Virus record (IMG/VR): IMGVR_UViG_3300009285_000570
Coordinates: 1-49,243 of that record
Direction: 5' to 3' (one strand)
DNA from: a virus
Length of the DNA: 49,243 nucleotides
Shown piece after piece: positions 1 to 49,243 of this stretch. How positions within the stretch are numbered: position 1 is the first letter of the stretch; every line of letters starts with the position of its first letter. Both the position numbers and the translations under genes were made by a program. The notes beneath the pieces were generated by a model. The model was not told the DNA's origin. It made no database searches and was given only the letters and a program-made list of their open reading frames with translations.

Positions 1-77
1 TAATAGTTGACTAGCAGATATAGGATCAGTCACTCCATAAATTTGATATAGAGTAAATAAATTTATACATTAAAACA

Positions 78-3345: not shown

Positions 3346-3672
3346 ATGAAAGACCTACAAAGGTTCGGTAATCTATTGAACGAGCAAGATAATCCTATAC
3401 TTATTAAGGATTTCGAGGAGGTAGCAATACCCCAGAAAAAGTATAGAGATGGTAATATACAGCTGTATATATATGAGGATATGTTGGCTGTAGCTACATT
3501 AAACAAGGGTAAAATTACCCGTTATACCTTGCTCGGTAATAGAGATGAATACAAAGTATTGTATTCGGGTTCGAGGGCTACTGAAGATATTTTTAGACAG
3601 GCATTATGGCATGGGGCTTGTATATTGACTAGGAGGGCAGGAAGTACTATAGGACTAGACTACAACCTATAG
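3346..3672 (+). CDS. Hypothetical protein, 108 aa
   Basis: Not recognised. 108 aa, ATG start in an A/T-rich leader. Begins with a short helix (MKDLQRFGNLLNEQ), continues with beta-type strands (NIQLYIYEDMLAVATL, ITRYTLLG, YKVLYSG) and ends with a helix (ATEDIFRQALWHGACIL) and RRAGSTIGLDYNL. Possibly a small alpha/beta protein. Its last codons run into the cluster of CAACCTATAGT repeats: the final codons and stop overlap the first repeat. Expected to be early because a strong promoter lies upstream. Confidence 0.5.
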   Translation: MKDLQRFGNLLNEQDNPILIKDFEEVAIPQKKYRDGNIQLYIYEDMLAVATLNKGKITRYTLLGNRDEYKVLYSGSRATEDIFRQALWHGACILTRRAGSTIGLDYNL

Positions 3673-3738
3673 TAGTACAACCTATAGTAAGGGGGTTAAA
3701 TAAAGGTTTCAACAACCTATAGTCTAGCAACCTATAGT
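3663..3738. repeat. Four CAACCTATAGT iteron-like repeats
   Basis: Four exact copies of the 11-mer CAACCTATAGT start at 3663, 3678, 3713 and 3728. They form two pairs, each with 15-bp spacing between starts, and the pairs are 35 bp apart. An inverted octamer (ACTATAGG) follows at 3785. The remaining bases up to 3991 hold a promoter and a 120-nt leader but no gene. The spacing suggests cooperative protein binding: operator cluster, iterons of an origin, or partition site. Confidence 0.7.
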
Positions 3739-3835
3739 GTTGTTGGGTTGTGTTGAATATATTGAATATAACACTTGCCCCTTTACTATAGGTCAGATTA
3801 CAGAAAAGACCTAGAGTGTGAATTATTATAAGTAG

Positions 3836-3991: not shown

Positions 3992-5086
3992 ATGAGTGAG
4001 CTAAGAAAGTGCTTAGAGTGTGGAGAGTACTTACCTAGTGAAGAAACTACATACATACTAAGTCAGAGTGGGTATGTATGTGATAAGTGCTTAGAGGATT
4101 GTTACTTCACTTGTGAGGGATGTAATAAGTATCACCACCTTGATAACGCCTATTACATAGATAGTGAAGGCATTTATGTATGTGAAAGCTGTTATTATGA
4201 AAGCTATGGTAGATGTACTAGTTGTGATTACAGGATGAGAATAGAAGATATGTACTATTACTGTGGCGACTACTACTGCCCAGACTGTTACAATGATTGT
4301 GAGGATGAGGAAATTATAGATGAATATCATTGTGGTGGTGGTAGAGGTGACTACTCTAAGGATTACCGATATAGAGTAGGGGTAGAACTTGAGAGAGAAG
4401 ATAGAGATACAAAGGAGAGTATTGATACTTACAAATTGAGAAATGACTATGGGTGGGTGGTTGAAAGTGATAGTTCTCTTGATAGTTTTAGTGGATTTGA
4501 AGCTATCAGTCCTATACTACCACTAAGACTTGGCGATTTAGAAAAGCTATTCAGTGATGAGGATATTAGAAGTCTAGTGAGAGCTGAATATACTTCTGAT
4601 TGTGGAGGACATATGACTATATCAGATACCAAGAGAAATCCAGACCAACTGATAGATGATATAGCAGGATACTTGCCTATACTATATGCCTTATTCCCTA
4701 ACAGAACCACTAACCATTATTGTGAACCAAGGGAGAAGGATTTTTATAAGGTGGGTGGTAGGTATGCTTTGAATAAGAGGGGTAGTTATAAAGGGGATGG
4801 ATTAGAGATAAGACTATTTGATGCCCCAAAAGATGAGGTAGATTTGATGAATAGATTTAGACTACTCAAGTTCATGCTAAGTCATAGGGCTACAACCATA
4901 GAGCAAGGGCTTAGGTTGTTAAGTGAGAGTAAGAAATTAAGAAAGGTAGTAAAGAACCACCTTGATATGTATGAGATAGCATACAAGGATTTTTATAGTA
5001 ACCTAGTAAGGTATGCTAGAGAGATAGATAAAATACGGTTAAGAAATATTGATATAGAGGATATAGATAGTATTCTTAATAGATAA
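3992..5086 (+). CDS. Amidoligase (COOH-NH2 ligase) with N-terminal zinc-binding array
   Basis: Predicted ATP-dependent ligase of the glutamine-synthetase-like amidoligase family (Amidoligase_2), which forms amide or peptide bonds. The N-terminus (about 1-110) is a string of paired cysteines (C7/C10, C30/C33, C41/C44 and more), read as tandem zinc ribbons or LIM-like knuckles. The ligase domain shows GVELERE (130-136), GWVVESDSSL (154-163), GFEAISP (168-174), CGGHMTIS (204-211) and LEIRLFDAP, the expected metal- and ATP-binding acidic and basic positions. It is first in a four-gene cassette with a glutamine amidotransferase, a second amidoligase and an ATP-grasp enzyme. The substrate is unknown; the zinc array may bind the target protein or nucleic acid. 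Confidence 0.8.
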   Translation: MSELRKCLECGEYLPSEETTYILSQSGYVCDKCLEDCYFTCEGCNKYHHLDNAYYIDSEGIYVCESCYYESYGRCTSCDYRMRIEDMYYYCGDYYCPDCYNDCEDEEIIDEYHCGGGRGDYSKDYRYRVGVELEREDRDTKESIDTYKLRNDYGWVVESDSSLDSFSGFEAISPILPLRLGDLEKLFSDEDIRSLVRAEYTSDCGGHMTISDTKRNPDQLIDDIAGYLPILYALFPNRTTNHYCEPREKDFYKVGGRYALNKRGSYKGDGLEIRLFDAPKDEVDLMNRFRLLKFMLSHRATTIEQGLRLLSESKKLRKVVKNHLDMYEIAYKDFYSNLVRYAREIDKIRLRNIDIEDIDSILNR

Positions 5087-5112
5087 ATAAATTGTGTAAG
5101 GAATAAAAATAT

Positions 5113-6147
5113 ATGTGTGGAATAGCGAGTTTGATAAACGTAAACCCAGAGAATAGGGAACTAGCAAAGAGGATATTCAAATCAATTCTTCTAGCTAATG
5201 AGAGTAGGGGTAGTGATAGCACAGGGGTGCTATCTATTGAGAGAGAGAGCAACCAGTTCTCCCTATTCAAAGATACCCTAAGAGCAAGTGAGTTCTTAAA
5301 GAGAAGAAAGTTTAGACAAGTGGAGGGTGATGTGTGGATAGGGCATACCAGACAGGCAACAACTGGTAGTGTGAATATAAGAAATGCCCACCCACTACAG
5401 CGAAAGGATATATTTTTAGTACATAATGGTATGATAAGTAATCATAGAGATATAGCTAAGAGCCTTGAGCTAGAGTATGAAGTGGATAGTGAGGTACTAA
5501 TACCGATAGTAGAGAAGGGGGATTGGGATTTGTTAGTGGATGTAAAGGGTAGCTTCAACTTCATAGCATGGGATAAACCTAATGAAAAGATAATAGTTGA
5601 AAGGCACGACAATCCTCTCTACTGTTTAACCTTAAAGGAATTAAACATGGTGATGTTTAGTTCTATAAGAGATGTGTTACAGTTTATAGCAGGACACTAT
5701 GGAGATGGCAGTGGGGTATTTGAATTCACTGAGGATACCATAGTAGAATTAGATATGAAAGGTAATGTTATAGGTGAGCCTAAGAAGTTAGAGTTCCCAG
5801 AAATACTATTACCTAGTACACAGGTAGTGAATAAAGTTTATAGTAGCTACTCAGATGAGAGATACCCTAGCTATTATAGTGATGATGATGATGAGAGTGA
5901 TATAGATGAATACATGAGGATATACAAAGACAACAAAGATGAAGACCTATTTTGTGAGGGGTGTGGGTGTGAGATAGAACCAGATGAGAAAGAAATGGGT
6001 ATTAAAGAGTGGGGCTTTGGTCTATGCTATCAGTGTCTAGGTGAGTTGGCAGTAGCAGAAGAATGTATTAAGCATGGAGAACCAATAGACCTAAAGGATA
6101 AACAGTGGAATAAGTTCTCCCATATACTAGAATATTATTTACCTTAG
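5113..6147 (+). CDS. Class II glutamine amidotransferase (Ntn hydrolase) with C-terminal zinc ribbon
   Basis: N-terminal glutaminase domain like that of GlmS or PurF. The start is fixed by the catalytic Cys2 (MCGIASL). Other family motifs are RGSDSTG (32-38), GHTRQATTG (77-85), AHPL (92-95) and HNGM (104-107). Such domains release ammonia from glutamine. No sugar-isomerase or other acceptor domain is fused. The C-terminus instead has an Asp/Tyr-rich linker and a small zinc ribbon (CEGCGCE, then CYQC). It probably supplies ammonia, or acts as an amide hydrolase, in concert with the amidoligases on either side. Gaps of 26 and 21 nt indicate one operon. Confidence 0.9.
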   Translation: MCGIASLINVNPENRELAKRIFKSILLANESRGSDSTGVLSIERESNQFSLFKDTLRASEFLKRRKFRQVEGDVWIGHTRQATTGSVNIRNAHPLQRKDIFLVHNGMISNHRDIAKSLELEYEVDSEVLIPIVEKGDWDLLVDVKGSFNFIAWDKPNEKIIVERHDNPLYCLTLKELNMVMFSSIRDVLQFIAGHYGDGSGVFEFTEDTIVELDMKGNVIGEPKKLEFPEILLPSTQVVNKVYSSYSDERYPSYYSDDDDESDIDEYMRIYKDNKDEDLFCEGCGCEIEPDEKEMGIKEWGFGLCYQCLGELAVAEECIKHGEPIDLKDKQWNKFSHILEYYLP

Positions 6148-6168
6148 TTAAATTAATCATTAAAATAT

Positions 6169-7893
6169 ATGACAGAAAAAGAATTATTAGAAGAAAAGAA
6201 GTCTATGCTACACCACTACTTTAAGGTGGTACTGTGTAGTATGACAGGTGGTGGTTCGGATAGTTTGTATGACGCCTTTGAGTTAGAGTACCTACCTAAA
6301 ATAAAGGTTAAGAAACTAGGAGAGAGTACAACCCTATTAGAAATACCAGAGCTAGACTTTGAAAGACTGTACATAGGTACGTCTGAGAAGATGACAAGAA
6401 TAGGGTTCATGCTAGGGTTCTCAGTGGGTGGTAGTTCACCAATAGAGTTAGCATTAGAGAGAGTTAATGAGAGGTTGGCAATATTAAACCCAGACCTAAG
6501 GGTAGTTGAAAGGCATGATGAGTATGATAATGAGTACTACTACTACCTTGAAATGTTAGGTACAAGTAGGGAGTGGGAGGAGGGTGAGTGGTGTAGGATA
6601 TCAGAGATACTGGTAGAGGGTAATAGTATGATGAATAGAACTAGAGAACATTGGGCATGGGTATTCAATTCCTTTGCTGGAATGAATGTGTCAGTAGATA
6701 AGGACATAGTAGACTTTGTAGGTGGGGTACATGGAATATTAACAAACACTTGTATTGAGTGTGGTACTACAATAATAGGGGCAGAAATGATTGTATGTCC
6801 TATGTGTCAGCATAAATACGCAAGGTGTGATGATTGTGGTGAGCTTATAAAGATAAGTGAGGGTGTGAGTATGAACAGAGGGTTCTTATGTAAGGGGTGT
6901 GCTACTAAGCCTAGATGTAGGGCGTGTGGAAGAACAGTTAATCTTGATAGTGGTAACCTGTGTGATAGGTGTAGTGATTTACATAGCATACTAGATTACC
7001 ATACTAACATAGGTAGGCAGGATGAGAGTAAGGATAGTAGGTTAAAGATAGGGTATGAGGTAGAAAAAGAAGATAAGAAAGTCAAGAATGGTCTTGATAA
7101 TGCCAAGTTAATGTCAAGTTCTGGGTGGGTAGCCGAAAGGGATGGCTCACTAGGTTGGACAGGGTTTGAGTTGATTAGTCCAGTACTACCACTAGATACT
7201 ACAAAGCTACCAGAATTACTAAGACCATTGAAGGAATTATTAAAGGCTGATGTTACTGATAGGTGTGGTGGACACATACATGTGTCGGATACTAAAAGAA
7301 CCCCTTATGAAATACTGTTAGATATAAGAGGATACCTACCCCTACTGTATGGGTTGTATCCTAAGAGGTCTATCAATCCATACTGTGAGGCTAAGGAGAA
7401 GGAGAGTTACATACAAACAGGACACAGACAGGCTGTCAATGTAACAGGTAGGACACTAGAGTTTAGAATATTCCCAGCAGTAAGGAACATGGAACAGCTG
7501 TTGTTTAGAACCAAGCTATTAGAGTACATGTTAAAGAACAAGGAGACAGATGTGGTAAGGGTAGGTGAACTACTACTCAATGAGGATAGTGAATTGTATA
7601 AGATACTAATAGAGAGAATAAGTACTAGTAAAATAAGGAAGAGAGCTGAAGCATTCATAGACTTTGCTAACTATATAGATAGAGACGCCTTAGTATTAAA
7701 GGGTAATAAGATAGAGAGGGTAATCAAAGTACCACAAATTAAGATAGATAAAGAGATACAGTTTGAAGCTATATCTAAACAGCTATCAGATGAGATGAGA
7801 AGTTCTAGAAGACCACCCTTTGGTAACTATCCTAGGCCTACTATGATAGATAGCAATGATTACGGATACTTTGCTAATTTAATTGAGGATTAA
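6169..7893 (+). CDS. Second amidoligase with central zinc ribbons
   Basis: 574 aa. Residues 1-190 form an unrecognised domain. About 195-268 is a run of CxxC pairs (CIECG, CPMC, CDDCG, CKGC, CRACG, CDRC), i.e. three zinc ribbons. From about 290 comes an amidoligase domain similar to that at 3992: IGYEVEKED, GWVAERDGSL, GFELISPVLPL, CGGHIHVSDTKR (from C366) and LEFRIFPA. The two ligases share the order of motifs and even the phrase SDTKR, so they are probably paralogues from a duplication. Having two in one operon suggests a two-step ligation, or two subunits. ATP and a carboxylate are expected substrates; the amine donor could be ammonia from the neighbouring amidotransferase. Confidence 0.8.
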   Translation: MTEKELLEEKKSMLHHYFKVVLCSMTGGGSDSLYDAFELEYLPKIKVKKLGESTTLLEIPELDFERLYIGTSEKMTRIGFMLGFSVGGSSPIELALERVNERLAILNPDLRVVERHDEYDNEYYYYLEMLGTSREWEEGEWCRISEILVEGNSMMNRTREHWAWVFNSFAGMNVSVDKDIVDFVGGVHGILTNTCIECGTTIIGAEMIVCPMCQHKYARCDDCGELIKISEGVSMNRGFLCKGCATKPRCRACGRTVNLDSGNLCDRCSDLHSILDYHTNIGRQDESKDSRLKIGYEVEKEDKKVKNGLDNAKLMSSSGWVAERDGSLGWTGFELISPVLPLDTTKLPELLRPLKELLKADVTDRCGGHIHVSDTKRTPYEILLDIRGYLPLLYGLYPKRSINPYCEAKEKESYIQTGHRQAVNVTGRTLEFRIFPAVRNMEQLLFRTKLLEYMLKNKETDVVRVGELLLNEDSELYKILIERISTSKIRKRAEAFIDFANYIDRDALVLKGNKIERVIKVPQIKIDKEIQFEAISKQLSDEMRSSRRPPFGNYPRPTMIDSNDYGYFANLIED

Positions 7894-7894
7894 T

Positions 7895-8803
7895 ATGAAA
7901 ACAATAATAACAAAAACAACAAGTAGAGATACCATTGGTAATGTAACAGCATACATGACCGAACAACTTAACCCTCTGTGGTATAGGTTAAGCAGACACA
8001 GGTACACAAGTAGACCACCCGATAGGGTAGACCTACTCATAAGATGGGGTTGTTCAGTACCACTTGACACACACATACCTCTTGTGTATAATAAGGGTAT
8101 AGGTAGTATGAATAATAAGGGGAGAGTTAGACAACTCTTATATGAAAACAATATACCAGTACCTAAACCAGTATCACATGATGATATCTTTGGTGCTAGA
8201 TATAACTATACTTTTAGATTTCCTATAGTGGTGAGACCTGCCTTTCACCAGAGAGGAAAAAACTTTTTGCTCTTTAATAATTTAACAGAGCTAGGTGAGG
8301 GTTGGGGTAAGATAGGTAGGCTAGACAACCCCTACATCTCTGAGTTCTATCCGAAGACTACAGAGTACAGGGTACACGTTGGTCACGGCAAGGTTCTCTT
8401 GGTACAACAGAAAGTCCAAACTTCTGTACCAGTTGGAGAGAACTGGAGTCATGAGAATGGGTATACCTTTGAGGTAATAGGATGGAAGCAATATCGTAAA
8501 GAGATTGTAGACCTAGCAGTAAGAACCATTGAGGTAGTCGGCTTAGACTTTGGAGCTGTTGATATAATGGCAGACCCATTAGACTCTAGCCTGCCAGTGG
8601 CAGTAGTGTGTGAGGTTAACACCTCTCCACGATTAGAGGGGTACACAGCCCAACGTTATGCCGAGTACTTTGATTGGTTAATAAGAACCAGAGAAGTAAG
8701 ACACTTCAAGATACCAGTAGATTTAAAAGCCAGACACTATGCCTTCAAGCATAGGGAACTGAGAGATAATAACTATGATTTAATTTTTAAAGAGGAAAGA
8801 TAA
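7895..8803 (+). CDS. ATP-grasp ligase (RimK/YheC-like)
   Basis: 302 aa. The ATG at 7895, one base after the previous stop, is preferred to an in-frame TTG at 7883. ATP-grasp features: pre-domain NNKGRVRQLLYENNIPVPKP, nucleotide-binding VVRPAFHQRGK (113-122), a hydrophobic ISEFYPKTTEYRV block, and the metal-binding end GAVDIMAD and EVNTSPRLEG (240-249, E240 and N242). Enzymes of this group activate a carboxylate as acyl-phosphate and join it to an amine, for example adding glutamate to proteins or making peptides. It is the last enzyme of the cassette and overlaps the next small gene by 1 nt (TAATG). Confidence 0.85.
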   Translation: MKTIITKTTSRDTIGNVTAYMTEQLNPLWYRLSRHRYTSRPPDRVDLLIRWGCSVPLDTHIPLVYNKGIGSMNNKGRVRQLLYENNIPVPKPVSHDDIFGARYNYTFRFPIVVRPAFHQRGKNFLLFNNLTELGEGWGKIGRLDNPYISEFYPKTTEYRVHVGHGKVLLVQQKVQTSVPVGENWSHENGYTFEVIGWKQYRKEIVDLAVRTIEVVGLDFGAVDIMADPLDSSLPVAVVCEVNTSPRLEGYTAQRYAEYFDWLIRTREVRHFKIPVDLKARHYAFKHRELRDNNYDLIFKEER

Positions 8804-8940
8804 TGGGAATAGAAATAATATATGTATATGTGGGGTTAGTTTTTGCCCCTGTTGTCTTATTATTTTTAGGAACAGTAATAGGGGTCTCTATATTAATAGC
8901 AACCTCGCTTATTAAGGCAATTAAAGAGTTACTTGAATAG
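8803..8940 (+). CDS. Small single-pass membrane protein, 45 aa
   Basis: Starts in the stop of the ATP-grasp gene (TAATG), so translation is probably coupled. Nearly the whole chain is hydrophobic (IIYVYVGLVFAPVVLLFLG, then VIGVSILIATSL) and it ends with IKAIKELLE. One long or two short membrane helices. Not recognised. Its link to the ligase cassette could mean it anchors the system or is its substrate, but this is speculation. A 108-nt noncoding stretch with a pseudoknot follows. Confidence 0.55.
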   Translation: MGIEIIYVYVGLVFAPVVLLFLGTVIGVSILIATSLIKAIKELLE

Positions 8941-8989
8941 ACCGAAATGTCTGTAAACTTCTAGTCTAATCGCAGACTTTAAACACAGC

Positions 8990-9021
8990 AAGACCAAGGG
9001 GTAGGGTCTTAGTACTACCCC
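8990..9021 (+). promoter_or_regulatory. H-type RNA pseudoknot in the 5' leader of the next gene
   Basis: Two interleaved perfect helices: AAGACC (8990-8995) with GGTCTT (9005-9010), and GGGGTAG (8998-9004) with CTACCCC (9015-9021). The connecting loops are 2, 0 and 4 nt, which fits classical H-type geometry. It ends 27 nt before the ATG at 9049, which has no Shine-Dalgarno sequence. It may regulate translation, cause pausing, or bind a ligand or protein. No riboswitch class was recognised. Confidence 0.55.
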
Positions 9022-9048
9022 ACTTATATAAATTGTTAGGGTAATACA

Positions 9049-9336
9049 ATGTTCAATATACCAGAGGGATATGACGAGAACGGTACTAGAGGTGGGCTTG
9101 GTGAGTGGTACGAAGACACCGATGAACTAGACGAGTTCGAAGAAACATGTCCAGAGTGTAGCTCATTGAATGTTCACAGGAATGAGTATGACTTCCTAGT
9201 CTGTGAAGACTGTGGGTACGAAGAGGTACCTAAGGAAGACATGGCAGAGTGTGAAAGGTGTGGTACCCCAGTACCAACAGGACTACTTAGTAGTGGTCTG
9301 TGTCCCGTATGTGCAGATGACATGGGACTTACTTAA
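9049..9336 (+). CDS. Double zinc-ribbon protein
   Basis: 95 aa. Acidic N-terminus, then CPECSS and CEDCGY (first ribbon, TFIIB-like spacing), followed by CERCGT and CPVC (second, rubredoxin-type). It resembles the ribbons in the amidotransferase and amidoligase genes upstream. No catalytic domain. Probably a protein- or nucleic-acid-binding adaptor. It may belong to the same functional module, or be a small transcription or recombination accessory protein. Confidence 0.6.
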   Translation: MFNIPEGYDENGTRGGLGEWYEDTDELDEFEETCPECSSLNVHRNEYDFLVCEDCGYEEVPKEDMAECERCGTPVPTGLLSSGLCPVCADDMGLT

Positions 9337-9353: not shown

Positions 9354-9674
9354 ATGGTAATCAAGCCAAGATTTTTTCTGAAGGCACCCATACAAGGGAT
9401 ACCCTTCTCTAATGAGGAGGTCGGTCTCGAGATAGAGTATGATGTTTCAGATGGTGATTGGGAAGAGGTAGACTCTATCCTCATGAAGCAAATGAAACTA
9501 GTGTCTAAAGAATACATGGATAAGCTAGCCTCTGAGATAGAGGATGGTCAGTCCAAGGTAGTTGAGAAACTACAGATAAAACTAGCCGAAGAGTACGAAG
9601 ATAAACTTAAGAAAGCTAGTAACGAAATATATAAACTTAGAGATTTATTAAAACAAAATGGAATATCCTATTAA
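9354..9674 (+). CDS. Hypothetical coiled-coil protein, 106 aa
   Basis: Not recognised. The first 30 residues are mixed (MVIKPRFFLKAPIQGIPFSNEE, GLEIEYDVSDGDW); the rest is a long charged helix (EYMDKLASEIEDGQ, KLQIKLAEEYEDKLKKASNEIYKLRDLL) with a heptad pattern. Probably dimeric. The stop overlaps the start of the SSB-like gene by 17 nt, so the pair is likely co-translated and could act together on single-stranded DNA. Confidence 0.55.
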   Translation: MVIKPRFFLKAPIQGIPFSNEEVGLEIEYDVSDGDWEEVDSILMKQMKLVSKEYMDKLASEIEDGQSKVVEKLQIKLAEEYEDKLKKASNEIYKLRDLLKQNGISY

Positions 9675-27715: not shown

Positions 27716-29020
27716 CTACAACCAACTGAATCTGTTAAGGTTAGACTCCTTAAGAAACTCTCTTGTCTTTGTGTTAGGCTTCTTCTCTTTCTGTAGTTCT
27801 TTTACTTTTATCTTAAGGTCTTCACTGCTTTTTATAGTATGCCCACCTTCTATTGGAATTCTAGATACTATATGGTGTCCCCATAAAGCAGCCTTGATTA
27901 CCAATTGACTAAGTCCATCATGTCTATTTAATCTTAAACACACATGGTGTTGTGACATTTTCTTGTCTGCATCCTCTTCTTCAAACCACCCCATGTAGTG
28001 AATATTACCACTACTATTTCCTTCAATCCCATAAACATACAACTCTACCCCTTCCATGCCTTCTAGGGTCATCACAGCCTCTGTAACACCATACTCCTGC
28101 TCCCTGTCTGGGTGTGCATTTATATAAACTTCTAATGGCTTACCTGGCTTGAATGATTCCTTGTAGTCTGACACGTACGCAAAGAAGATTGGCTCCACTA
28201 TTGCAGTGATACCCACACTAGCTAGCTCCTCCCTTAACATCTCATTGTGGCACACGTGTATACCTGGGTGCTCCTTTAATATCTCAACCCCCTCTGGGTG
28301 TTGTAGTAACCTAGATACATCAGACCCATTCCAGAACACTACCTTCTGGCCTGTGTGTTTCTTATACACCTCATAGTCCTCCTTAAAGTATAATCCCATA
28401 AAGAGTAGTCTTTCCTCCTCAGTACCTGAGTATTCTCTAAACCCAAAGGTACTCTTCATTCTCTCACCGTAGAACTTCATACCCTCACAGTAGTACACCT
28501 CGGGTCTCTTCCATGTGGCTATTAAACTATTGTGTATTTGTAGTACATCAAAGTTCGGAAAGTCCATGGGTGCCCACTCACTCCTATGGGTCTCGTGTTC
28601 ATTACCGTACACAGCACCCTGCTCAGATACCTGTACTGGTGTTACTATTATAAGATACCTACACCTCTGTTTAAGTTTCTCTAATAGTATCTTACCCTCC
28701 TCTTTATTAAAATGCTCTAGTACATCCCCTATGTATATGAGTTCATAAAAACCCATACCATCTATTAGGTCCATTATATCTCCTATATAAATGTTGTCAT
28801 AGATATCCCTCTGTAAGTCTGTTATATATTCTGGGAATATTTCCACCCCGTCTATGATTGTATAATGTTCAAACATCTTACCATTCCATACGTCTGTGTA
28901 TTCCCTAAACAACATACCCTTAGAACCATACCCAATACCTACGTCTAGTATAGTCCTAGGTCTAATCTTTATTATCTGGTCACACAACCAGGTTAAGTGA
29001 TATGGTCTACTTGTTGGCAT
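27716..29020 (-). CDS. Class I methyltransferase fused to a GT-B-like domain
   Basis: 434 aa. N-terminal SAM-binding domain: ILDVGIGYGSKG (24-35) is motif I, GVEIFPEY the acidic strand 2, and YIGDVLEHF the motif IV region. The C-terminal half, from about residue 225, has GT-B-like features (HPGIHVCHNEMLREEL, LEVYINAHPDREQEYGV, NIHYMGWFEEEDADKKM, RHDGLSQLVIKAALWG), ending with the glycosyltransferase-4 type acidic motif region. It could both build and cap a glycan. It is encoded within the fibre cluster and overlaps the next glycosyltransferase by 14 nt. The substrate may be tail fibres or a host glycan. Confidence 0.7.
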   Translation of the reverse strand: MPTSRPYHLTWLCDQIIKIRPRTILDVGIGYGSKGMLFREYTDVWNGKMFEHYTIIDGVEIFPEYITDLQRDIYDNIYIGDIMDLIDGMGFYELIYIGDVLEHFNKEEGKILLEKLKQRCRYLIIVTPVQVSEQGAVYGNEHETHRSEWAPMDFPNFDVLQIHNSLIATWKRPEVYYCEGMKFYGERMKSTFGFREYSGTEEERLLFMGLYFKEDYEVYKKHTGQKVVFWNGSDVSRLLQHPEGVEILKEHPGIHVCHNEMLREELASVGITAIVEPIFFAYVSDYKESFKPGKPLEVYINAHPDREQEYGVTEAVMTLEGMEGVELYVYGIEGNSSGNIHYMGWFEEEDADKKMSQHHVCLRLNRHDGLSQLVIKAALWGHHIVSRIPIEGGHTIKSSEDLKIKVKELQKEKKPNTKTREFLKESNLNRFSWL

Positions 29021-29915
29021 TTCCTATATTCCTTACAAATAATACATTCTCGTTAGTAGCTGACTCTGCATACCTGTGCCATGCTACCTTGTTGACCGCA
29101 TCCATGTGGTCTCCTATGAATTTAAGGGCTTCTTTAAAGTTGGCGTTATATTTAATAGCCTGCCATGCTGCGTCACAAGCCTCTTCATATTTCTTTAAGC
29201 CTGCTAGACAGTATGCCTTCATCATCCATGCGTCGTTCCTCTCCCCTAAGAACCTACTCCTTGGTATGTATTCATTTAAATGCTCTAAACACTTCTCCCA
29301 ATTCTTTCTGTAAAAATACTCCCTTGCTAAGTAGTATCTCTCCCTTGTTAACTCACCATTTTCTTCTACTGCAGCCTTTAGTATTCTTAAGGTTCTCTCT
29401 GGGTCCTTCTTGTGTGCAGGTGAATAACCATATACTATTTTAATATCTGACTTATAACTCTTACCTACCATACTACCCTTGTAATTAAGGTAGTTATGAG
29501 CAGGACCATTCCAGGTTATCTCAGGTATGTTCTTATAAATTCTAGGAAATATATTACTACCTGCTTTGCCCTCTGCTTCTACAATTACATTAACAAACAC
29601 GTGGCCTTCCTTGTCTGCCTTCTTTATAATCTTCCTTACTTCCTTAAGGTCTGTCTCTAAATACTCATCTGCGTCTAAGGTTATTATCCAGTCCCCAATA
29701 CACTTATCTTTACTATGCTGCCTTGCCTTACCAAAGTGGTCTACCCATTTAAAATCTGTAAACACCTTATCCGTAAATTTCTTGGCAACCTCTATAGTGC
29801 TGTCCTCGCTACCTGTATCACACACTACTATCTCGTCGGCTCCCTTTACAGACTCTAACGCACGAGGTAGCATCTCCTCCTCGTTCTTTACAATCATTGC
29901 TACTGATATCTTCAT
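29007..29915 (-). CDS. Family 2 glycosyltransferase with helical repeats
   Basis: 302 aa. The GT-A domain starts ISVAMIVKNEEEMLPRAL, with DTGSEDST (33-40) for nucleotide-sugar binding and DADEY (81-85) as the DxD metal motif. The C-terminal 100 residues are TPR-like helices (ERYYLAREYFYRKNWEKCLEHL, AWMMKAYCLAGLKKYEEACD). This layout matches TPR-linked protein glycosyltransferases such as those acting on bacteriocins and fibres. Intact active site. Expressed from a promoter 27 bp upstream of the start. Confidence 0.85.
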   Translation of the reverse strand: MKISVAMIVKNEEEMLPRALESVKGADEIVVCDTGSEDSTIEVAKKFTDKVFTDFKWVDHFGKARQHSKDKCIGDWIITLDADEYLETDLKEVRKIIKKADKEGHVFVNVIVEAEGKAGSNIFPRIYKNIPEITWNGPAHNYLNYKGSMVGKSYKSDIKIVYGYSPAHKKDPERTLRILKAAVEENGELTRERYYLAREYFYRKNWEKCLEHLNEYIPRSRFLGERNDAWMMKAYCLAGLKKYEEACDAAWQAIKYNANFKEALKFIGDHMDAVNKVAWHRYAESATNENVLFVRNIGNANK

Positions 29916-31226: not shown

Positions 31227-32477
31227 TCAACTAAATACTTCCTTCCACGTGTCCCCTACATTCACCTGTACCTTTGTAACTGGCTTCCACGAATCTCCCA
31301 CATTAACTTTTACTGCTGTTACAGTTTTCCACGAATCACCCACGTTCAACTTCATGTCAGTCCCTGTAGCTCCAGCAGGTACTTCTACTGCAAAGACCTG
31401 TACAAAACCATCAGAACTTACTCCACAGTAGAAGTTTATAAAGTGATTACTGTCTATTTGGTAACACGAATTGTAATTACTACCTATCGTATCAAACTCT
31501 AGACTAGCATTTGCTGTTGTTACTGCCCAAGTAGAAGTGTTCACTGCAAATACTTGTACATAACCATCATCTCCTGTTCCTCTCCAGAAGTTTATAAAGT
31601 GATTACTGTCTACCTGATAGCAAGAATTGTACCATCCTATGTCAGTATCAAACTCTAGACTAGCATTTGCTGTTGTTACTGCCCAGGTGCTCGTATTGAC
31701 CGTGAATACCTGTACAAAACCGTCAAAACCGTCTCCACTGCAGAAGTTAATAAAATGATTACTGTCTATTTGATAACACGAGTTGTGTGTGCCATTAACT
31801 ATATCAAACTCTAGACTAGCATTTGCTGTTGTTACTGCCCAAGTACTTGTACTAACTGTAAATACTTGTACATAACCATCTGTACTACTTCCAGCCCAGA
31901 AGTTTATAAAGTGATTACTGTCTATTTGGTAACACGAATTATAAGAGTTATCTACCGTATCAAACTCTAGACTAGCATTTGCTGTTGTTACTCCCCAAGT
32001 AGAAGTGTTCACTGCAAATACTTGTACATAACCATCCAAATCCCCCGTTCCCTGCCAGAAGTTTATAAAGTGATTACTGTCTATTTGATAACACGAATTA
32101 TAAAGGCCCTTATTCGCCTCAAACTCTAAGCTAGCATTAGCTGTTGTTACTGCCCAAGTACTTGTACTAACTGTAAATACTTGCACAAAACCCTTGCTAA
32201 ACTCTTGCCTCCAGAAGTTAATAAAATGATTACCATCTACCTGGTAACAAGAGTTGTCTGCACCGTATGCTGTATCAAACTCTAGTCTAGCATTTGCTGT
32301 TGTTACTCCCCAAGTAGAAGTGTTCACTGCAAATACTTGTACATAACCATCCAAACCGTCTCCAGCCCAGAAGTTTATAAAGTGATTACTGTCTATTTGA
32401 TAACATGAATTATAAAAACCGTATGCTGTATCAAACTCTAGACTAGCATTTGCTGTTGTTACTGCCCAGTCAGCCAT
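31227..32477 (-). CDS. Seven-repeat protein, probable beta-propeller adhesin
   Basis: 416 aa. Seven near-identical units of about 52 aa with the core VTTANASLEFD...NSCYQIDSNHFINF...DGYVQVF, one per expected blade, make a seven-bladed propeller likely. Each unit has one Cys and a conserved DSNHFINF. After about residue 365 come three short repeats (VNVGDSWKTVT, VNVGDSWKPVT, VNVGDTWKEV), another tail-protein motif. A lectin-like tail component is the best guess. It overlaps the next gene by 1 nt (TAATG). Confidence 0.7.
   Translation of the reverse strand: MADWAVTTANASLEFDTAYGFYNSCYQIDSNHFINFWAGDGLDGYVQVFAVNTSTWGVTTANARLEFDTAYGADNSCYQVDGNHFINFWRQEFSKGFVQVFTVSTSTWAVTTANASLEFEANKGLYNSCYQIDSNHFINFWQGTGDLDGYVQVFAVNTSTWGVTTANASLEFDTVDNSYNSCYQIDSNHFINFWAGSSTDGYVQVFTVSTSTWAVTTANASLEFDIVNGTHNSCYQIDSNHFINFCSGDGFDGFVQVFTVNTSTWAVTTANASLEFDTDIGWYNSCYQVDSNHFINFWRGTGDDGYVQVFAVNTSTWAVTTANASLEFDTIGSNYNSCYQIDSNHFINFYCGVSSDGFVQVFAVEVPAGATGTDMKLNVGDSWKTVTAVKVNVGDSWKPVTKVQVNVGDTWKEVFS
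31430..32470. repeat. Seven 156-bp in-frame tandem repeats
   Basis: Direct repeats of about 52 codons each, recognisable by CAAACTCTAGACTAGCATTT and by GAAGTTTATAAAGTGATTAC (plus strand), recurring every 156-159 bp. Some neighbours differ at only a few bases, so copies are recent or are kept alike by recombination. They encode the blades of the protein above. Confidence 0.85.
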
Positions 32478-33169
32478 TAGTCTTTATACTGAATTAAATT
32501 ATATGTTGTAATATGGAAAGGTCTTACCCTATCGTCTAGCCAAATCTCAAATCCTTCTTTAACAGCCCTTTCACTAAACTCACAATCCTCACTCATAGTC
32601 CTCCTGTCATACTCTTTCCCCTTAACTACCACCTTCTTTTTAAATTTTATATCTCCAAACTCAAAGATATACTCTCCATACTTAGCAAAAAGTTTCTCTA
32701 AAACCTTTCTCTTAACAAGCATACAACCTGTTCCTGCTGCATCAATCCTATGCAAATAATCGTCTTCCTTAAACTTCTCTATATTCTCATAAAGATTTAT
32801 CTTCTTACCATCTGCCTTCACCTCTCTTTTATAAAAAGCACACAAAGGATGAACCCCATTCTTATCAGGATTTCTCCCTAGTATAGGAGCAATTACAATG
32901 TCCTTATCATCCTCTATAAACTTTTCAAGTGTATCTGGTGGTATTGGATTATCGTCATCAACAAAGAAAACATAATCAACCCCATTCTTAAGAGCCTCTA
33001 AAGCAATATTATTTCTAGCCTTGTCTATCCTCTGTCTCTCGACTACCATAAAAGCACAGGGTAAGGGCTTGTGTAATTGTAATAAGCTCTGCACTGTAGC
33101 ACTAGGTATAAACCCACTATAAGAGGGCATACCCACTAAGATTGTTTTATTTTTGTATTTCTGTGACAC
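32477..33169 (-). CDS. GT-A glycosyltransferase, 230 aa
   Basis: Rossmann-like start (TILVGMPSYSGFIPSATVQSL), then YVFFVDDDNPIPPDTLEKF with the DxD-type motif at 71-73, and a later acidic catalytic region (MSEDCEFSERAVKEGFEIWLDD). It resembles GT2-like or Anp1-like enzymes of phages and bacteria. It sits between the propeller and collagen-like fibre genes and is translationally linked to both sides (1-nt and 23-nt overlaps), which suggests that it modifies fibres. Confidence 0.8.
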   Translation of the reverse strand: MSQKYKNKTILVGMPSYSGFIPSATVQSLLQLHKPLPCAFMVVERQRIDKARNNIALEALKNGVDYVFFVDDDNPIPPDTLEKFIEDDKDIVIAPILGRNPDKNGVHPLCAFYKREVKADGKKINLYENIEKFKEDDYLHRIDAAGTGCMLVKRKVLEKLFAKYGEYIFEFGDIKFKKKVVVKGKEYDRRTMSEDCEFSERAVKEGFEIWLDDRVRPFHITTYNLIQYKD

Positions 33170-33426: not shown

Positions 33427-37366
<3,940 letters not shown>

Positions 37367-49058: not shown

Positions 49059-49243
49059 ATGCAAGACCTTGGTAAGCTCAAAAAGAATGAGTTGATAGCC
49101 ATGGTGGAAGACCTCCAATTGGAGAACATTTCGCTCAAGGCAGAGGTAAAGATTCTTAGGGACAAGTTTCCTAAGGAGCCCTCGGTAGTCTATAAGGAGT
49201 GGAGGGGAACAACAGAGAGTAGCTATTGCAAGAGCATTGGTTG
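49059..49243 (+). CDS. Partial gene, coiled-coil protein, cut by window end
   Basis: At least 61 residues, open to the end of the window. ATG at 49059 follows GGAAGAAG in a 24-nt leader from the promoter at 48999. The start is a charged coiled coil (LGKLKKNELIAMVEDLQLEN, LKAEVKILRDKFPKEPSVV) followed by KEWRGTTESSYCKSIG. The product cannot be named from this part. It continues the early replication region. Confidence 0.6.
   Translation, partial: MQDLGKLKKNELIAMVEDLQLENISLKAEVKILRDKFPKEPSVVYKEWRGTTESSYCKSIG

Follow-up and report, generated by a model that had tools for sequence, protein, structure and literature searches.

A divergent phage cassette of two zinc-ribbon amidoligases, a class II glutaminase and an ATP-grasp ligase

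The phage genome analyzed here carries four tightly spaced plus-strand genes, in the order amidoligase (AMDL1), class II glutaminase, second amidoligase (AMDL2) and RimK-like ATP-grasp ligase (Table 1), with intergenic gaps of 26, 21 and 1 nt. Re-reading of the window, that is, the whole stretch of 49,243 nucleotides that was analyzed, agrees with the coordinates, gene order and gaps of an initial annotation. The cassette represents a diverged form of the amidoligase/class II glutaminase/ATP-grasp set of phages, a kind already known, and its novelty consists of two ribbon-bearing amidoligases in a genome where the PF14395 ligase and the gamma-glutamyl cyclotransferase were not found. On balance we favour a function in ammonia-fed amide or peptide ligation, for which the likeliest substrate would be a host wall-precursor peptide, with a host protein as a close second. 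The phage-borne peptide-tagging or amidation system suggested in the initial annotation is sound as an idea but not new, having already been proposed for related cassettes (PMC5498523, PMC10580990).

Table 1. Cassette genes and adjacent small open reading frames (window coordinates)
Feature	Position	Strand	Basis
AMDL1, 364 aa, amidoligase (GS/GCS-like fold) with N-terminal CxxC...CxxC zinc-ribbon array	3992..5086	+	AMDL2 paralogue; conserved motifs; model
Class II glutamine amidotransferase (MCGI; stand-alone glutaminase), C-terminal zinc ribbon, 344 aa	5113..6147	+	GATase_6, PHROG 4736
AMDL2, 574 aa, amidoligase with ~190-aa uncharacterised N-terminal region and zinc-ribbon array	6169..7893	+	Amidoligase_2; motifs
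RimK-like ATP-grasp ligase, 302 aa	7895..8803	+	RimK, PHROG 2599, profile vs structures
Single-span membrane ORF, 45 aa, probably accessory	8803..8940	+	Hydropathy; sister-phage comparison
Free double zinc-ribbon protein, 95 aa	9049..9336	+	DZR-like score; kept in sister phage

Enzymes of the cassette

AMDL2 matches the Pfam Amidoligase_2 profile (PF12224) with 27.1 bits, above the cut-off of 22. AMDL1 has no Pfam match of its own; the two proteins share 34% identity over 343 residues (E = 2e-55), ribbon array included, and are paralogues. The columns that are invariant across seven amidoligases correspond in AMDL1 to G130, E132, E134, D160, S162, E170, C204-G205, H207, E272 and R274, which we take, from general knowledge of the fold, to be the GS/GCS-type metal and substrate motifs. 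Both paralogues retain these catalytic-motif residues, which suggests that both are active. The predicted model of AMDL1 (mean pLDDT 79.7, pTM 0.64) matches YbdK (1r8g, E = 2.7e-5), glutamine synthetases, Dop and PafA in the PDB, with low TM-scores of 0.28–0.37 (0.36 for YbdK over the whole chain); the model supports the fold family but, because of these low scores, not a close relative. Among viral models, the best matches to AMDL1 are phage proteins, several of them named amidoligase and one 'LIM domain containing protein', which makes it probable that comparable proteins rich in cysteine exist in further phages. A LIM identity of the ribbon array is not claimed, as the matches are weak (E about 0.002) and the cysteine spacing differs. 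The model of the ~190-aa N-terminal region of AMDL2 (mean pLDDT 56.8) is not confident and was not usable.

The zinc-ribbon arrays contain six CxxC motifs each in AMDL1 and AMDL2. Ribbon-bearing amidoligases are found in the present phage, its sister phages and phage L018, and CxxC ribbons are absent from the amidoligases of CW02, RIO-1, O4, GAP52, 1.293.O and ctfjg026. One scan of genome contigs revealed no cellular homologues of the zinc-ribbon amidoligases, and no plasmid copies were found at megablast sensitivity. No match to PF14395 was obtained either, in a weak test against a single PF14395 sequence (that of CW02). Relatives in viral contigs were found by an alignment-based scan, whereas single-protein scans with AMDL1 and AMDL2 found none.

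The glutaminase matches GATase_6 (57.7 bits, 1.6e-15; Pfam cut-off 27) and PHROG 4736 (1.6e-35). It retains an intact N-terminal Cys (Cys2), together with R80, H104-N105-G106 and D125, and has no fused acceptor domain. Its predicted C-terminal ribbon, a CxxC...CxxC arrangement of C281/C284/C305/C308, is invariant among eight aligned phage homologues, and at least two CxxC motifs are present in 12 of 16 phage relatives, the exceptions being L006, L032, L034 and L036. Unlike the amidoligase ribbons, this putative ribbon is common in the phage family, and it would provide many members of that family with a defined docking element open to experimental test.

The ATP-grasp protein scores 21.2 bits against RimK, barely above the Pfam cut-off of 21, and matches PHROG 2599 (2.1e-22). 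Its profile matches the structures of cyanophycin synthase (best) and RimK, and the conserved residues E240 and N242 are kept. Against TIGR00768 (RimK family alpha-L-glutamate ligase) it reaches 38.9 bits, below the curated cut-off of 143.4. The enzyme families named in the initial annotation are thus upheld, with the glutaminase, AMDL2 and the ATP-grasp protein placed above profile cut-offs and AMDL1 assigned by paralogy and fold. Alignments of the amidoligases, the glutaminase and the ATP-grasp protein show intact catalytic residues, and the cysteines of the zinc ribbons reported in AMDL1, AMDL2, the glutaminase and the free double-ribbon protein at 9049 were all found.

Genome context and conserved neighbourhood

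Two fragments of the same population (L008 and L009) bridge window base ~49,200 to base ~46. These joins indicate a circular or circularly permuted phage genome of about 49.2 kb, contained in the window essentially in full. Given these joining fragments, the record ends (window 1–46 and about 49200–49243) look like assembly artefacts; the final bases of the record encode, in one frame, SGGEQQRVAIARALV, an ABC-transporter signature. The cassette sits amid the early DNA-metabolism and replication genes. Just upstream, 150 bases contain six CTATAG-centred repeats, mostly AACCTATAGT (window 3647–3790), which are possibly a regulatory or origin repeat. Shine-Dalgarno-like sites occur at 11 of the 57 starts in the whole window, and the upstream stretches are AT-rich and enriched in TAAATT and TTAATA, which suggests that the host does not depend on Shine-Dalgarno sequences. 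Two glycosyltransferase-like proteins (window 29007–29915 and 32477–33169) lie amid structural genes, and collagen-like GPT-repeat proteins are located at window 33427–37366.

The gene order is identical in a sister phage (L014; IMGVR_UViG_3300040801_001654, 45.8 kb, TerL 71%), which encodes AMDL1, the glutaminase, AMDL2, the ATP-grasp ligase, the double-ribbon protein and a 106-aa protein; the tblastn identities of the four enzymes are 55%, 58%, 49% and 64%, respectively. A third relative shows a ribbon-bearing AMDL1 start with seven CxxC motifs at its contig end. A survey with profiles built here revealed 15 additional loci that combine genes of the three classes, amidoligase, glutaminase and ATP-grasp (L002–L006, L018, L019, L030–L033 and L035–L038); they were chosen from matches to the window's own proteins and are not a random sample. 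The co-occurrence is therefore conserved, as anticipated, in the sister phage and 15 other phage loci. In L015–L017, an ATP-grasp gene is found without the other cassette genes in the stretch examined.

A PF14395-type ligase (phiEco32-like COOH-NH2 ligase) is present in 13 of the 15 relatives' loci, with no match in L018 and L032, and the gamma-glutamyl cyclotransferase PF06094 is present in eight and hence not universal. Neither was found in the ~49.2 kb genome, and because essentially the whole genome is covered, these negative results carry weight, as far as the two models are sensitive enough. The pathway would consequently not be identical to that of the relatives, and the compact four-enzyme set suggests which parts are dispensable. 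In other phages, glutaminase and gamma-glutamyl cyclotransferase form one protein beside an amidoligase gene (L007:8944-10161; L028:10356-12068).

The start codon of the 45-aa membrane ORF shares 1 nt with the stop codon of the ATP-grasp gene, and the hydropathy of the ORF product reaches 2.58 over 19 residues. This ORF, described initially as a coupled membrane protein, is present in the window; the sister phage has no equivalent, and its ATP-grasp and double-ribbon genes are only about 84 nt apart. The peptide is therefore probably not part of the system, and the proposal that it is a core component or substrate was set aside. The double-ribbon protein has a DZR-like score of 20.5 bits, below the cut-off, and no match in the phage collection. 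It is 56% identical in the sister phage, where it also lies next to the cassette, and it is a candidate, as yet unproven, for the cassette pathway. The following 106-aa protein (window 9354–9674; 75% identical in the sister phage) opens with EEVGLEIEYD, which resembles an amidoligase strand; its interpretation as a degenerate amidoligase was rejected, as a profile comparison gave no match.

The membrane ORF is followed, ahead of the double-ribbon gene, by a conserved non-coding element (window 8939–9022; about 8877–8961 in L014), of which these are the only two copies found. It comprises the hairpins AGAC/GUCU and AGUCU/AGACU, followed by AAGACC-AA-GGGGUAG-GGUCUU-AGUA-CUACCCC, a stretch arranged like an H-type pseudoknot. 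All 22 of 22 pairs are kept between the two genomes, two of them via changes on both sides, and slid versions keep 37–52%; with two sequences only, the shuffle control, in which 124 of 500 shuffles reach the observed value, is not decisive. Folding without the pseudoknot gives z-values of -0.92 and -2.39 relative to shuffles, so that one of the two sequences folds no better than its shuffles. No Rfam match was obtained. The element may represent a conserved RNA that is possibly pseudoknotted.

Proposed chemistry and candidate substrates

From the enzyme families, we infer that the stand-alone glutaminase, with no acceptor domain fused to it, would free ammonia from glutamine and supply a partner synthetase with it. 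Both GS/GCS-fold amidoligases would use ATP to activate a carboxylate as an acyl phosphate, leading to an amide or isopeptide bond, and the ATP-grasp enzyme would extend the same substrate by an amino acid, as RimK-type ligases do. The glutaminase ribbon and the amidoligase ribbon arrays may serve as docking sites, either between the enzymes or for a macromolecular substrate, and the shared recruitment role assigned to them initially is possible. None of the four enzymes contains a transmembrane-like segment, and they therefore probably work in the cytosol.

The substrate would most likely be a cytosolic host wall-precursor peptide that is altered early in infection, perhaps blocking superinfection. 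A seven-gene phage set has been termed a 'peptidoglycan modification cassette' and hypothesised to prevent superinfection (PMC5498523), and the peptidoglycan-modification idea is repeated, citing Iyer et al. 2009, in PMC10580990. Amidoligase-glutaminase-ATP-grasp cassettes are widespread in phages, yet the papers found report no substrate, and the literature searched yielded no experiment naming one for such a phage cassette. Murein is probably present in the host, as the phage genome also codes for a LysM protein and an N-acetylmuramoyl-L-alanine amidase. Because the literature and these wall-lysis genes favour the wall, a wall precursor is ranked as the most likely substrate, a little above a host protein. 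To our knowledge, zinc ribbons are not usual in wall-precursor ligases, which counts against this assignment.

Protein targets stay in consideration on account of the ribbons and the Dop/PafA-like fold. It is conceivable, with a lower probability, that the cassette adds glutamate or other amino acids to a host protein, or amidates its carboxylates, with the ribbons recognising the target; a ribosomal protein, RNA polymerase or a defence protein are tentative examples. Dop and PafA, which neighbour AMDL1 in fold by a weak match, act on the protein tag Pup, and RimK modifies ribosomal protein S6. The ribbon arrays in both amidoligases, the ribbons in the glutaminase and the free neighbour protein, and the location amid early DNA-metabolism genes are consistent with such a role. 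By contrast, no candidate tag or target was seen, the ribbons could serve enzyme assembly alone, and typical relatives with the same enzymes have amidoligases without ribbons. A phage system distinct from wall modification, in which a specific host protein is modified by a ribbon-scaffolded, ammonia-channelling complex of the two diverged amidoligases and the ATP-grasp enzyme, is unlikely.

Two further substrates were considered. A small-molecule product, such as a gamma-glutamyl or cyanophycin-like peptide, or a boost of nitrogen assimilation during infection, appears rather improbable. It would agree with the best fit of the ATP-grasp profile to cyanophycin synthase structures, with the GCS-like fold of the AMDL1 model, and with the fusion of glutaminase to gamma-glutamyl cyclotransferase beside an amidoligase in some phages; nitrogen metabolism was proposed from growth data for phage ZRK32, which has such genes (PMC10945688). 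However, no cyclotransferase was found in the present genome, and three ligases plus ribbons exceed the needs of simple assimilation. The DNA-linked groups listed in the initial annotation find no support. Class II amidotransferases act in archaeosine-type base modification in other phages, but the genome has no QueC match and the scanned proteins showed no further gene of this type, so that hypermodification of DNA bases with amino or amide groups is very improbable.

Comparison with known systems

The present cassette shares with the 'peptidoglycan modification cassette' of RIO-1-like, phiEco32-like, LUZ24-like and PA11-like phages (PMC5498523) a class II glutaminase, mostly with a C-terminal ribbon, and Amidoligase_2-type and RimK-like ATP-grasp enzymes, encoded no more than a few kb apart amid the early genes for replication. 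By contrast, it contains two paralogous zinc-ribbon amidoligases where most relatives have a PF14395 ligase and a PF12224 amidoligase; it lacks the PF14395 ligase, the gamma-glutamyl cyclotransferase and the ~190-aa companion protein between genes, and adds the free double-ribbon protein.

The ATP-grasp protein resembles RimK and cyanophycin synthetase ligases in its ATP-grasp core and the conserved E/N near the C-terminus, but falls far below the NCBIfam curated cut-offs. AMDL1 resembles YbdK-type carboxylate-amine ligases and Dop/PafA in its predicted fold, and differs in its about 12% identity, low TM-scores and the zinc-ribbon array in front of the domain. In L018 (IMGVR_UViG_3300029811_000124), a class II glutaminase with a ribbon likewise comes immediately after a zinc-ribbon amidoligase, and an ATP-grasp gene is found 1.3 kb further along; this phage differs in having one amidoligase only, an AAA-ATPase gene in between, and another backbone with clamp and clamp-loader genes.
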